DNA from: Bacteroidetes bacterium GWA2_32_17
GTDB taxonomy: Bacteria; Bacteroidota; Bacteroidia; Bacteroidales; GWA2-32-17
Reading direction: 5' to 3'
Length of the DNA: 43,062 nucleotides
Assembly: GCA_001769035.1 (NCBI GenBank)
Contig: MENF01000055.1
Span: 784-43,845, forward strand
Positions 31,296 to 35,467 of the stretch are shown here, piece after piece (the stretch's first letter is position 1; each line of letters opens with the position of its first letter). A model generated the notes under the pieces. That model was not told the DNA's origin and did not search any database. It was given only the letters and a program-made list of their open reading frames with translations. The position numbers and the translations under genes were made by a program.

Positions 31296-32117
31296 ATGAA
31301 AAAAGTTATAATAAAAAAAATAATTTCTATTGCAATATGGTTAGTATTTATTGCAGTATTTGTTATTTCATTGGGCTTTTCGAAAACTGAACTTAATAAA
31401 GTGAAATGTAAAAGTATTGATGTGCAAATTGTTGACACAACAGGCAATAGTTTCGTTGAATCGAATGATATAATCGAATTTTTAAATCAAAATAATTATA
31501 AAATTATTAGAAATTATATCGAAGATATTCCTCTTAATAAAATCGAAAACGATATAAATAATTATCCTTCAATAAAATCAACTGAAGTTTTTACTACTTT
31601 AGATGGAATATTGCACATTGTTATTGTTCAGCGTGAACCAATTCTTCGTATAATTAATTACGATTGTACTAGTTATTATATTGATTGTGATGGTGCATTA
31701 TTTCCTTTATCAGGAAAATATACAGCAAGGGTATTAGCAGCTAACGGAAAAATTAATGAGCCTTACAATTTGCGTTATACTAAAGATATTACCAAAACCG
31801 AAGCAAAAGATGAACTTGGTCGGAAATTTATTGTAGATGACCTGTTTATACTTGCAAAATTTATTAGAGCGGATAAATTTTTAGATGCTTTTATTGAACA
31901 AATATTTATTAACAATAATGACGAAATTGAGCTTGTGCCAAAAGTAGGAACATTTACAATACTTTTAGGCGATATACAAAATTTAGAAGAAAAATTTACA
32001 AATCTAAAAGCATTAATTTTAATTGGTTTACCTCGCGAAGGTTGGAATAAATATGAAACAATAAATATTAAATATAAAAATCAAGTTGTTTGTACTAAAA
32101 TTAACGAAAATGAATAA
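31296..32117 (+). CDS. ftsQ: Cell-division protein FtsQ/DivIB
   Basis: A 273-residue bitopic inner-membrane protein. It has a basic N-terminus and transmembrane helix (about 8-27, IISIAIWLVFIAVFVISLGF). A periplasmic POTRA-like domain (about 38-112) begins with a VKCKSIDVQIV strand and includes INNYPSIKSTEVF and LHIVIVQREPILRII; a beta domain follows. It links FtsL/FtsB to the early divisome. Bacteroidota FtsQ is poorly conserved, so the call rests on topology, the 'REP' strand motif and position between murC and ftsA. It overlaps ftsA by 8 bp. Confidence 0.88.
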   Translation: MKKVIIKKIISIAIWLVFIAVFVISLGFSKTELNKVKCKSIDVQIVDTTGNSFVESNDIIEFLNQNNYKIIRNYIEDIPLNKIENDINNYPSIKSTEVFTTLDGILHIVIVQREPILRIINYDCTSYYIDCDGALFPLSGKYTARVLAANGKINEPYNLRYTKDITKTEAKDELGRKFIVDDLFILAKFIRADKFLDAFIEQIFINNNDEIELVPKVGTFTILLGDIQNLEEKFTNLKALILIGLPREGWNKYETINIKYKNQVVCTKINENE

Positions 32118-33507
32118 GATGAATAACATTATTGCAGCAATTGACATTGGCACTACAAAAATTGTAGCCGTAATTGGGAAAAAAGAAGCCGATGGAAAAT
32201 TTAGGGTTTTGGGAATAGGAAAAGCAAAATCCTCGGGTGTTAAACGCGGAAATGTGCTTAACATTGAAGAAACTGTTGACGGAATTAAAACCGCCATAAA
32301 AATTGCCGAACTTCAATCGAACATTAATATTAAAGAAGTATTTGTAGGCATTGCTGGTCAAAATATTAAGTGTATTGGCAACTCCGGGTATATTAATCGT
32401 CCAAATTTTGAACAGGAAATTACTCAGGAAGAAATTGATTTACTTGAAAATGACCAGTATAGAATTGCACTTGAACCGGGCGAAGAAATTATTCATGTTT
32501 TACCAAAAAGTTTCTCAGTTGATAACGAAAGTGGCGTTAAACCAATTGGTATATGCGGAAACCGTTTGGAAGGACAATTCCATGTTATTATTGGTAAATC
32601 AATGAACATTAAAAACCTGAAGCGTTGTGTTGAAAAAGCCGGTATAAAGTTGATTTCATTATTTCTCGAACCAATTGCATCGGCAAAAGCCTCTCTTACC
32701 GAAGATGAAAAAGAAGCTGGAGTTGCTATGATAGATATTGGCGGAGGCACATCAGACCTTGCAATTTATTACGAAGGTTCAATTTGTCATACTGCAGTTG
32801 TTCCATTTGGAGGAAATGTTTTAACAAATGACATTAAACAAGCATACAACCTTTTAGAAAAAGATGCCGAAGAATTAAAAGTTAAACATGGAGCTGCACT
32901 TGCCGAAACAATTTCAAACGAAGAAGTTGTTAGCGTTCCCGGAATTAGCGGAAGAAGTGCCAAAGAAATTAGTAAAAAAGATTTATCAAGAATTATTCAG
33001 GCTCGTATGGATGAGATAATTGGCATTATTGAGTTTCAAATTAAAAACTCAGGATATGCCGATAAACTTGGTGCCGGAATAGTTTTAACCGGTGGTGGCT
33101 CATTGTTAAAATCATTACCGCAATTTGTTTCTTTTAAAACAGGATATGAAATACGTATTGGAAACCCGATTTTATATCTTAATTCTGATATTCAGGAAAA
33201 TGTAAATTCGCCAATTTTTTCGACAAGCGTTGGGCTTATTATAGTTGGCGATGAATTCTTAAATAAACTTGGGAAAAAGACAGAAACTGGCTTATTTGAA
33301 ATTCAAGAAGAAGAAAAAGTTGTTAAAGCTATTTCTAAACCCGATGAATTTGGTTTTTCAGATGAATTGGAAAAGAAAGAAGCAAAAAAGAAAAAACTAC
33401 CTAAGGAACAAATAACCTATAAGGAAATCAGAGAATCAAAAGTTAATAAAATTTTGTCAAGTCTTTCTAAACTATTTGACGATTCAGATACAAAAATTAA
33501 TGAATAA
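32110..33507 (+). CDS. ftsA: Cell-division actin homologue FtsA
   Basis: An actin-like ATPase that tethers FtsZ to the membrane. The phosphate-1 loop AAIDIGTTKI is near the N-terminus, phosphate-2 is AMIDIGGGTSDLAIY, and the adenosine region is VLTGGGSLLKSLP. The FtsA-specific 1C subdomain lies about residues 85-170 (EEIIHVLPKSFSVD). The C-terminus has a charged linker and an amphipathic helix (VNKILSSLSKLFDD), the expected membrane-targeting sequence. ATGs at 32110 and 32119 are both plausible starts. 32110 is listed and gives an 8-bp overlap with ftsQ. An inverted-repeat-bounded cassette follows instead of ftsZ. Confidence 0.95.
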   Translation: MNKMNNIIAAIDIGTTKIVAVIGKKEADGKFRVLGIGKAKSSGVKRGNVLNIEETVDGIKTAIKIAELQSNINIKEVFVGIAGQNIKCIGNSGYINRPNFEQEITQEEIDLLENDQYRIALEPGEEIIHVLPKSFSVDNESGVKPIGICGNRLEGQFHVIIGKSMNIKNLKRCVEKAGIKLISLFLEPIASAKASLTEDEKEAGVAMIDIGGGTSDLAIYYEGSICHTAVVPFGGNVLTNDIKQAYNLLEKDAEELKVKHGAALAETISNEEVVSVPGISGRSAKEISKKDLSRIIQARMDEIIGIIEFQIKNSGYADKLGAGIVLTGGGSLLKSLPQFVSFKTGYEIRIGNPILYLNSDIQENVNSPIFSTSVGLIIVGDEFLNKLGKKTETGLFEIQEEEKVVKAISKPDEFGFSDELEKKEAKKKKLPKEQITYKEIRESKVNKILSSLSKLFDDSDTKINE

Positions 33508-33530
33508 CTAATGTTACGCAAAAATAAAGT

Positions 33531-34010
33531 TGACACTAATTTCACAAATTTTCACCAAAAAATAATAATACTATGGAACAGTTAGTTTATAAAGAGGAGG
33601 CATACCAAATTATCGGTATTTGTATGGAGGTGCATAGAATTCTTGGGAAAGGGCATAGTGAAGTGGTTTATAAGGATGCATTAGAATACGAATTTCAAAA
33701 CACCGATATTGAGTATTCAAGGGAACAACAATATAAAATAAAATATAAAAAAATCATTTTACCACATCCTTACAATGCTGATTTTGTAGTATTTGATAAA
33801 ATAATACTTGAAGTTAAAGCCATCGAATTACTAACAGATAGCCATATTAAGCAAACACTGAATTATCTCGCAGCATCAAAGCAAAAGTTAGGATTATTGG
33901 TTAATTTTGGACAAGACAGTTTAGTATATAAAAGAATTGTATTATAGGTATGAATTATCACGAATAAGAATAGTATTAATAATTAGTGCAAATTAGTGTA
34001 ATTAGTGTCA
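33531..34010. mobile_element. Putative mini-element carrying a GxxExxY gene between ftsA and ftsZ
   Basis: The ends are inverted repeats of 25 bp. Left (33531-33555) starts TGACACTAATT; right (33986-34010) ends AATTAGTGTCA; they agree at 22 of 25 positions. The exact 10-bp sequence AAAATAAAGT lies directly outside both ends (33521-33530 and 34011-34020) in direct orientation, like a target-site duplication. Further out, ATGTTACGCA (33511-33520) and TGTGTAACAT (34025-34034) form another inverted pair (9/10), so the true boundary could be 33511-34034. There is no transposase; the only gene is GxxExxY. If it moved, it was mobilised in trans or by an unknown route. Confidence 0.5.
33573..33947 (+). 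CDS. GxxExxY family protein (PD-(D/E)XK nuclease-like)
   Basis: A 124-residue small cytoplasmic protein. The name-giving motif is G27-x-x-E30-x-x-Y33 (GKGHSEVVY). The nuclease-fold core follows as D70 in YNADFVVFDK and E80-V-K82 in IILEVKAIE, then SHIKQTLNYLAASKQKLGLLVNFG. The family is abundant in Bacteroidota and environmental genomes; it belongs to the PDDEXK superfamily by motif, but its biological role is not established. It interrupts the ftsA-ftsZ adjacency and is bounded by inverted repeats. Strand agrees with the cluster, so it is probably co-transcribed with ftsA and ftsZ. Confidence 0.85.
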   Translation: MEQLVYKEEAYQIIGICMEVHRILGKGHSEVVYKDALEYEFQNTDIEYSREQQYKIKYKKIILPHPYNADFVVFDKIILEVKAIELLTDSHIKQTLNYLAASKQKLGLLVNFGQDSLVYKRIVL

Positions 34011-34069
34011 AAAATAAAGTAATATGTGTAACATAAGTAATAATTTATAAACAATAAAACCTCAAAATT

Positions 34070-35467
34070 ATGAACGAAGAAGATTTATTAAAATTTGGAT
34101 TTCCTACCGAAAGACCTTCAATTATAAAGGTGCTGGGAGTAGGAGGTGGTGGTAGTAATGCCGTTAACCACATGTTTAAACAAGGTATTAATGATGTTGA
34201 CTTTGTGGTTTGCAATACCGATGTTCAGGCACTTGCGAAAAGTCCGGTTCCTATTAAAATTCAATTAGGACAAACTTTAACCGAAGGACTTGGCGCAGGA
34301 AGCTATCCCGAACAAGGAAAACAAGCTGCAATAGAAAGTTTGAACGACATTGTTAGTTTACTTTCCGAAAATACAAAAATGGTTTTTATTACAGCAGGAA
34401 TGGGTGGAGGTACCGGAACTGGTGCAGCACCCGTAATTGCAAAAGCTGCTAAAGAATTAGGTTTGCTTACAGTAGCTATTGTTACAATACCTTTCCATTT
34501 CGAAGGTCCAAGACGCTTTAATCAGGCGATAGAAGGCATTCGGGAATTAAAAGAAAATGTTGATTCATTGTTAGTTATTAACAATGAAAAATTACGCGAA
34601 ATTTATGGAAATCTTCCTGCATCCGAGGGATTCTCAAAAGCCGATGATGTGCTAACAATGGGTGCCAAAGGTATTGCAGAAATTATTACCGTATCAGGTC
34701 ATATAAACGTTGACTTTGCCGATGTTAAAACCGTAATGAGTAATAGCGGAGTTGCAATTATGGGAATTGGCGAAGCTGAAGGCGAAAATCGTGCTATTGA
34801 GGCAATAAAAATAGCTCTTTCGTCGCCACTTCTTAATAATAATGAAATTAACGGAGCAAAAAATGTACTTTTAAATATTACTTCCGGTGAATGTGAAGCT
34901 ACTATGGATGAAATCGGACAAATTAGTGATTATGTTCAGGATGCTACCGGTTCTAAAGCTGACATGATTTTTGGAAGCTGCACTAATCATGCTCTTGGAA
35001 GTAAAATTAGTGTAACTATTATTGCTACAGGTTTTGGTACATCTTCAATTCCTGAATTAAATGTTATAACACCTAAAACCAGAAACCAAAAACCTGAAAC
35101 CAGAAACTCAGAAACAAAAACTCAGAAAATTGAAATACCAAAAGAAAACAATGTAAATAATTCAATTACTTCGTTTGAGCAGAAATCAATTGATTTTAAC
35201 GAAAACAATATTTCAGAGAACAATGTTGTAACAAATCTTCAAAATACATTAACCAACCCTCAAAAACAAACCATTCTTACTGATTTAGATAATAATGATG
35301 AGATAGATAAACTATCGAATATTCCGGCTTATTTAAGGCAAAATATTGTAGTTGAAGATAAAAATTTTTCAACTTCATCTGATAAATCAAGTTTCACGAT
35401 TAATAAGACTAAAAATGGTACTCAGTTAAGAGAAAATAATTCATATTTACACGATAATGTTGATTAA
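34070..35467 (+). CDS. ftsZ: Cell-division tubulin FtsZ with heptamer-derived linker
   Basis: A 465-residue GTPase that polymerises into the Z-ring. GVGGGGSNAVNHM (about 23-35) and the tubulin signature GGGTGTG (112-118) bind GTP. The T7 catalytic loop is NVDFADVKTVM. The globular core ends near residue 325. A disordered linker follows, whose start (335-353) is encoded by a heptamer array. The conserved Bacteroidota C-terminal peptide IPAYLRQN is at about 418-425 and would bind FtsA. About 40 residues extend beyond this peptide, unusual because it is normally close to the C-terminus. It is preceded by the GxxExxY cassette instead of ftsA. Confidence 0.97.
   Translation: MNEEDLLKFGFPTERPSIIKVLGVGGGGSNAVNHMFKQGINDVDFVVCNTDVQALAKSPVPIKIQLGQTLTEGLGAGSYPEQGKQAAIESLNDIVSLLSENTKMVFITAGMGGGTGTGAAPVIAKAAKELGLLTVAIVTIPFHFEGPRRFNQAIEGIRELKENVDSLLVINNEKLREIYGNLPASEGFSKADDVLTMGAKGIAEIITVSGHINVDFADVKTVMSNSGVAIMGIGEAEGENRAIEAIKIALSSPLLNNNEINGAKNVLLNITSGECEATMDEIGQISDYVQDATGSKADMIFGSCTNHALGSKISVTIIATGFGTSSIPELNVITPKTRNQKPETRNSETKTQKIEIPKENNVNNSITSFEQKSIDFNENNISENNVVTNLQNTLTNPQKQTILTDLDNNDEIDKLSNIPAYLRQNIVVEDKNFSTSSDKSSFTINKTKNGTQLRENNSYLHDNVD
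35072..35127. repeat. Heptamer array inside ftsZ
   Basis: Eight in-phase 7-bp units, including CCTAAAA, CCAGAAA, CCAAAAA, CCTGAAA, CCAGAAA, CTCAGAA and ACAAAAA, encode the first part of the FtsZ linker (TPKTRNQKPETRNSETKTQK). The units are circular permutations of the AAACCAG/AAACCGA heptamers in the M43 gene. Confidence 0.8.

Follow-up and report, generated by a model that had tools for sequence, protein, structure and literature searches.

A small gene of Bacteroidetes bacterium GWA2_32_17 (contig MENF01000055.1) lies between two genes that are normally adjacent, and this raises the question of whether it is carried by a mobile unit and whether the nuclease fold of its product is responsible for the movement. 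The neighbours are presumed to be ftsA, a name taken from the first-pass annotation and from the position before ftsZ, and ftsZ. The analysis covers the window, i.e. the whole stretch of 43,062 nucleotides in which the gene is found, the remaining contigs of the source genome, and related genomes of the genus and beyond. The account favoured here, which as a whole is probably correct, is that of a mobile cassette, sisters of which would have been moved in trans by an IS66-type transposase, with short repeats (iterons) at its ends that would be read by the encoded nuclease.

The cassette between ftsA and ftsZ

The window copy is bounded by the arms TTGACACTAATTTCACAAATTTTCA and (as reverse complement) TTGACACTAATTACACTAATTTGCA, which form a 25-nt inverted repeat with 22 matching positions and lengthen to a 41-nt arm pair at 80%. 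When 45-nt arms were compared throughout the window with the stretch 300-700 nt downstream, this pair was the top inverted repeat (score 42, 99.9th percentile 31.6). The arrays at the two ends consist of the iterons CACTAATT/CACAAATT at a spacing of 9-10 nt, and an exact direct repeat of AAAATAAAGT encloses 480 bp; the inverted ends, the exact 10-bp direct repeat and the 480-bp unit reported in the first-pass annotation are thus all present in the sequence. An outer end pair, GTTACGCA...TGTGTAAC, delimits 520 bp (33513-34032) and is flanked by ATAACTAAT and ATAAGTAAT, which are identical at 8 of 9 positions. Among the 115 GTWAC pairs in the window, only this outer pair has at most one mismatch in 9, the chance of which is 0.0008 per pair, with about 0.09 expected across all 115. 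The candidates for a target duplication are the inner repeat of 10 bp, which is exact, and the outer repeat of 9 bp, which has one mismatch, and the inner AAAATAAAGT may represent a second, nested duplication. The iteron unit would perhaps be nested within a short GTTAC...GTAAC palindrome. A search for this palindrome as a repeat family (TGTTACRCA...TGYGTAACA) gave no hits in the source genome, the window site itself falling outside the pattern owing to its insert. A sequence similar to AAAATAAAGT, AAAATAAG, adjoins the iteron ends in the locus L148.

Two inverted ends around a gene, and no transposase gene, are features of a mobile insertion cassette that the window copy displays, and the window element would be a small single-gene cassette of this kind, made up of outer ends, inverted iteron arrays and a PD-(D/E)XK gene. 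The coordinates are given in Table 1. Identity with a 23S rRNA intervening sequence was considered and rejected, the site being the ftsA-ftsZ junction and the product a nuclease.

The claim that the cassette splits normally adjacent genes is borne out by the other genomes of the genus, in all four of which ftsA and ftsZ are separated by 23-26 nt without an insert, these congeners being too diverged for the empty target sequence to be read. The cassette lies in sense at the junction, and in view of its absence in the four congeners it most likely entered after the lineage of the source genome had split off; the mobility of the window copy itself we infer. The ftsA-ftsZ junction is shown to tolerate such an insert. 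The first 277 amino acids of the ftsZ product were matched in 37 of the 41 genomes searched, the source genome included.

Table 1. Features of the cassette in the window and copies of a gene-less element in contigs of the source genome
Feature	Position	Strand	Remarks
ftsA	32086..33507	+	ORF; presumed name; upstream neighbour; stop codon 33505-33507 inside outer direct repeat
Outer direct repeat, left copy ATAACTAAT	33504..33512	.	8/9 with right copy; possible target duplication
Outer inverted end GTTACGCA	33513..33520	+	
Inner direct repeat AAAATAAAGT, left copy	33521..33530	.	exact
Left iteron array CACTAATT, CACAAATT, CAC	33531..33555	+	
GxxExxY gene	33573..33947	+	124 aa, PD-(D/E)XK nuclease family
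Right iteron array, AATTAGTG x3	33981..34010	-	inverted copies of CACTAATT
Inner direct repeat AAAATAAAGT, right copy	34011..34020	.	exact
Outer inverted end TGTGTAAC	34025..34032	-	
Outer direct repeat, right copy ATAAGTAAT	34033..34041	.	
ftsZ	34070..35467	+	ORF; presumed name; downstream neighbour
186-bp element, source genome (G000)	C2:3327-3512, C36:371-556, C100:6243-6428, C121:15611-15796, C187:1529-1714		near-identity seen in four of the five

The gene product is a member of the GxxExxY/PDDEXK_3 family, matching the TIGR04256 (GxxExxY) profile with 131.2 bits (cut-off 35, E=2.1e-38) and the PF13366 (PDDEXK_3) profile with 116.2 bits (cut-off 22, E=1.3e-33). In an alignment of 76 sequences D70 is invariant, and E30, E80 and K82 are conserved in at least 90%. 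The structural model of the window protein (pLDDT 96.4) gave, at E=8e-5 and weaker, SSO0001 (4ic1), which we take to be a Cas4, as the top Foldseek match, followed by lambda-type exonucleases, with a weak structural likeness also to the homing endonuclease I-Bth0305I and a Holliday junction resolvase. The D...ExK core, seen in the conservation, and the fold place the protein in the PD-(D/E)XK superfamily, of which, as modelled, it appears to be a bare core. Retention of the catalytic residues in a mobile gene suggests that a nuclease activity may be under selection. A sequence search for relatives of solved structure gave no significant match (best E=0.23). A literature search found no described role for the family, and no description of GxxExxY cassettes was found in the titles and abstracts of the open-licence literature, in which the family itself is named. 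A role in anti-phage defence and carriage as phage cargo were both rejected, there being no PADLOC match for the four proteins scanned, and 50,697 phage records having yielded nothing by tblastn; one of four proteins has a weak endonuclease match in PHROG, and 8 plasmid records contain a distant relative.

Iteron arrays around GxxExxY genes

The gene is present in 29 of the 60 genomes of the order, including the source genome, which contains eight copies (L001, the window copy, to L008). In most of these, short arrays flank the gene on either side, and the array type varies between copies, the iterons being CACTAATT in L001, CACAGATT in L002, ACGAATT in L004, CGCAAAG in L005 and L006, and CACGGAT in L007. 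When each copy was compared with permuted partners, L001, L002, L005 and L006 stood out (0-1 of 54 as good) and L003, L004, L007 and L008 did not (8-44 of 54 as good); by eye, iterons can be made out in L004, in L007 and at one end of L008. The profile search adds two pieces that resemble one gene split by cassettes carrying a gene of the four-helix family (see below). At L020 (C31, 260-2340) a GxxExxY gene is apparently split by four-helix cassettes in tandem duplicate with a 464-bp period, and a 21-bp tandem array of the four-helix cassette iterons is present, one cassette family being inserted into the other. At L008, another inverted element (1858-2048), about 190 bp long, adjoins the broken GxxExxY gene, with the ends GTTACTGTTTGGGT / GTTACTGTTCGGGT and CCACGAC...GTCGTGG hairpins inside.

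A contig scan with the window clade confirmed at least 523 relatives, of which the best 80 loci, mainly from Flavobacteriaceae, Bacteroidales and Ignavibacteria, were kept; inverted ends were scored at 77 of these best 80 of at least 523, three being dropped for short or N flanks. The 77 loci have a median score of 40, while the control, 170 further ORFs taken from these loci, has 17 (p=1.5e-34, many of the Flavobacterium loci being orthologous), and 70 of the 77 exceed the 95th percentile of the control, 44 the 99th. The control ORF with the top score (50) reads from its sequence as a MarR-like regulator and another top control as a four-helix gene. The triple CACNNATT occurs at both ends in 37 of the best 80 (of at least 523) loci, and further array types appear in another set, which comprises 83 loci of the source genome, the genus and the order. 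The period of the arrays is 8-11 nt, the peaks at 16-20 being weaker and uneven. GxxExxY genes are carried by single-gene cassettes with inverted iteron-array ends. The refutation foreseen in the first-pass annotation, a lack of inverted repeats at other GxxExxY genes, did not come about, as the 70 of 77 loci drawn from the best 80 of at least 523 show, though four of the eight copies in the source genome (L003, L004, L007 and L008) remain below the 95th percentile of the control.

For the comparison of iteron type with protein, both locus sets (including the best 80 of at least 523) were pooled into 154 loci and thinned to 95 proteins of less than 80% identity; entries with more than one stop, partial matches and short or N flanks were dropped from the pool. 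Similarity of the flanks within 110 nt rises with the protein identity (Spearman/Mantel r=0.287, p=0.002), while that of flanks 300-410 nt away does not (r=-0.015, p=0.70; 95 proteins in each case). Flanks taken in the wrong orientation correlate almost equally with the protein (r=0.245, 95 proteins), because many of the flanks are palindromic. These results bear on the alternative that common intergenic repeats, of regulatory origin or left as MITE debris, make up the iterons and lie by chance beside GxxExxY genes. Although such repeats do occur without the gene, only 5% of the loci would be expected to exceed the percentile reached by 70 of the 77 (best 80 of at least 523), and co-variation of the near flanks with the protein, not shared by the far flanks, also speaks against this alternative, which is very improbable.

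The agreement between the left and right arms at three variable iteron positions is 0.57, 0.41 and 0.38, against 0.48, 0.34 and 0.31 under independence, in the 37 of the best 80 (of at least 523) loci to which a pattern fixing the CAC and ATT letters applies. Such weak co-variation favours a protein-read site over base pairing in an RNA stem. In the favoured account the iterons are most likely a putative DNA site that the encoded nuclease recognises and through which it may cut, recombine or hold the cassette. Such self-recognition would account for the match between iteron type and protein, for the weak co-variation of the arms and for the conservation of the catalytic residues.

The idea that target duplications generally accompany the iteron ends was rejected by a shared-stretch test on 89 loci, in which the mean shared stretch is 4.24 against 4.01 in permuted pairs (sd 0.10). 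An exact 8-bp duplication with a 6-nt inverted end was found in 12 of 149 loci against 0-5 in eight permutations, and an exact 9-bp duplication with such an end in 6 of 149 against 0-1. Duplications are now visible in a minority of loci at most.

Movement of sister cassettes and a probable IS66 connection

Two GxxExxY units, L005 and L006, of 541 bp each and 89% identical, occupy different sites in the source genome, their left flanks being unrelated (23%, ungapped). Both combine inverted ends with an exact 8-bp target duplication (AATCTTTT for L005, TACATTTT for L006), as expected of mobile insertion cassettes, and since exact 8-bp duplications accompany their GTWACTAYTCAG-like ends, L005 and L006 are shown to have moved as such cassettes. 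Together with L025, a four-helix unit of 596 bp with the duplication AATTTATT, they are the three gene-bearing units with GTWACTAYTCAG ends and have the IS66-type combination of a GTWACTAYTCAG-like end and an 8-bp duplication, with departures from the consensus at both L005 ends and one L025 end.

The ends have many further representatives in the source genome, where exact matches to GTWACTAYTCAG number 74, the reversed control having 1. Of 71 distinct ends, 37 could be paired with an exact 8-bp partner, and six permutations gave 0-2; when one mismatch was permitted, the number rose to 41, and to 1-9 in the permutations. The partnerless ends lie partly at contig ends. From these ends 34 distinct elements were delimited, 30 with exact duplications, the longest (2767 bp, 7/8) being doubtful. 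For 59 of the 71 ends there are iterons no more than 75 nt away, against a background of 4.5%, copies of one element being counted apart. About thirty gene-less elements share GTWACTAYTCAG-like ends, and among the gene-less elements one of 186 bp has several near-identical copies in both orientations (Table 1) and looks like a recently active MITE; it has the terminal inverted repeat GTAACTACTCAGCC, exact 8-bp duplications in three copies and CACAGATT iterons inside. In other genomes, the GxxExxY units L226 and L231 of G056 have similar ends with 7/8 duplications, and L069 of G002 has GTTACTATT ends with an exact AATAAATT duplication.

IS66 genes were found in three of the eight relatives searched. 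In the congener G002 an IS66 transposase frame (a frameshifted gene) starts 92 nt from the end GTAACTATTCAGCAGC, which is identical over 16 nt to the ends of four elements of the source genome (L256, L274, L306 and L314). G056 has an uninterrupted IS66 frame (480 aa) whose start is 99 nt away from GTTACTGTTCGGGTT, which also forms the right-hand end of the GxxExxY unit L230 of that genome, the left end of L230 being irregular. For the IS66 elements of G002 and G056 the far end was looked for and not found, and the link is drawn from one end in each genome together with the published ends; all that the source genome retains of IS66 is a remnant lying about 270 nt from a GTAACTATTTAG. As described in PMC12898284, ISDge4, a member of the ISBst12 group of IS66 that was seen to insert, has the ends GTGACTACTCAGCA / GTAACTGCTCAGCA and an 8-bp repeat; its GTRACTRCTCAGCA ends and 8-bp direct repeat are comparable to the GTAACTATTCAGCAGC ends of the source genome, but the cassettes have no transposase inside. 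IS66 ends starting with GTAAGCG, of which the ends in the source genome share GTAA only, and 8-bp repeats are given in PMC11946415, and 8-bp repeats are tabulated for two IS66 elements in PMC3281130.

Because their ends match the IS66-adjacent ends and also occur on gene-less elements and on a four-helix unit, L005 and L006 were probably moved in trans and not by the nuclease, the agent being most likely a transposase of the IS66 family (ISBst12 group), to judge from the matching ends. Some GxxExxY cassettes were thus probably moved by the transposase of another element. The window copy, with the ends GTTACGCA / GTTACACA and a repeat of 9 (8/9), lacks the GTWACTAYTCAG end and the 8-bp duplication; it is not assigned to the IS66-type units because its ends agree with the consensus in GTTAC only, and it probably arrived by a related route.

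Further signs of mobility come from comparisons between genomes. L002 has an empty site in all four congeners. A junction orthologous among the relatives of G029 is empty in G016 and contains one GxxExxY clade in G070; in G029 itself it contains a different GxxExxY clade, apparently nested in outer arrays of the G070 type, while G074 has a four-helix gene and G075 a WxcM-like gene at this junction (both named from sequence). The suggestion that GxxExxY genes are themselves mobile units is accordingly upheld by the inverted iteron ends at most loci, by the empty congener sites of two cassettes, by the 8-bp duplications of L005 and L006 and by the alternative cassettes in one orthologous slot.

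Occupation of a single slot by alternative cassettes, among them one that seems to be nested within iterons of a different type, would also be compatible with an autonomous element, in which the GxxExxY protein cuts iterons in the donor and the target and repair copies the cassette. The association of the iteron type with the protein, the conserved catalytic residues and the weak structural likeness to I-Bth0305I and a Holliday junction resolvase are in its favour; however, L006 has moved in spite of a stop codon in its gene, provided that the stop is older than the move; in the source genome, gene-less elements by far outnumber the others with such ends; and a four-helix gene without a nuclease fold has such ends too. 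Autonomous movement is hence regarded as quite unlikely. The first-pass interpretation stands as regards mobility, and its further proposal, that the nuclease fold aids movement, finds no support in the clearest cases, where the same ends delimit gene-less elements and a four-helix unit, and is there probably wrong. Under movement in trans, a nuclease activity would more likely serve retention, replacement, homing at iterons or regulation than the basic step of transposition, since the ends that demonstrably moved also occur on gene-less elements.

Placement of the cassettes and the parallel with intervening sequences

Both neighbours lie within 400 nt at 59 of the 95 loci, and the orientation of the gene among these is tandem-sense in 50, tandem-antisense in 1, convergent in 4 and divergent in 4; ordinary genes in the same loci are sense in 24, antisense in 5, convergent in 7 and divergent in 4. 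The sense bias of 50:1 exceeds the control ratio of 24:5 (Fisher p=0.02), and some of it is what operon genes normally show. The start of the cassette coincides, in many Flavobacterium loci, with the stop codon of a gene that we take, from its sequence, to be map, ahead of what is presumably a methyltransferase gene. A GxxExxY cassette is present at this junction in many species (L095-L122 and other Flavobacteriaceae loci), and its recurrence suggests long retention or a preferred site.

Insertion in sense within operons would be accounted for if the ends acted at the RNA level, the inverted iterons forming a stem in the host transcript in the manner of the RNase III-cut 23S rRNA intervening sequences (IVS). 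Strong hairpins, such as the solo unit at L100 (-36.5 kcal/mol), are in line with such a role, as are the terminal inverted repeats and RNase III processing described for IVS elements with an S23 ORF (PMC4990558) and the same layout in the four-helix family. The arrays, however, are repeats of a short core and not one long stem, the 8-bp duplications indicate DNA transposition for the units having them, and the arms barely co-vary at the variable positions (37 of the best 80 of at least 523 loci), which disfavours an RNA stem as the cause of the inverted arms. The RNA-level explanation is considered unlikely.

The four-helix (S23/IVS-type) family is unrelated to GxxExxY and uses a similar layout. 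The source genome has 20 TIGR02436 matches to it (L009-L028), several with inverted short repeats of their own. With 150-nt flanks measured from the profile match, 4 of 16 four-helix loci exceed the 95th percentile of the control (p=0.0002 overall), a weaker result than for GxxExxY; when the flanks are extended to 250 nt, a larger number ranks high relative to permuted partners. Sharing of iterons between the two families in the source genome shows no excess (23.0 across families, 23.0 within four-helix), the similarity within GxxExxY being 27.9 with the L005-L006 pair at 130. A wider and still tentative proposal, regarded as rather doubtful, would give GxxExxY and the four-helix S23-type proteins the key part in a broad class of selfish iteron cassettes with a single gene, found in Bacteroidota and also outside them; each protein would recognise the iterons at its own ends and drive replacement or homing at co-directional junctions, with IS66-type ends as an extra vehicle in some.

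The closest known systems include the mobile insertion cassettes (MIC231, mic elements), which are described in PMC3913671 as having inverted ends, no transposase gene, a target duplication and cargo mobilised in trans; L005 and L006 fit these in their ends, absent transposase and duplication. A difference is that the cargo here comes from a single nuclease family, whose iterons follow the protein, and that such ends here also carry an unrelated four-helix gene or none. The 23S rRNA IVS, as portrayed in PMC4990558, likewise have one small gene between terminal inverted repeats and a patchy distribution and are deemed selfish or mobile, but the cassettes lie outside rRNA, encode another protein fold and have iteron arrays and, in some, DNA-type target duplications. 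The GxxExxY cassettes can be described as mobile insertion cassettes with unusual protein-following iterons and an unexpected parallel to the S23/IVS system. The location of GxxExxY genes on such cassettes offers a first testable role for a curated family, and the parallel extends to the old puzzle of the rRNA intervening sequences and the S23 protein.

The cassettes may also explain part of the short iterated intergenic repeats in Bacteroidota. Gene-less hairpins with the same iterons occur about 1 kb from the cassette in a number of Flavobacterium loci. Tandem arrays of 79-nt iteron hairpin units were observed beside the GxxExxY genes at L091 (3372-3890) and L143 (1475-1810).
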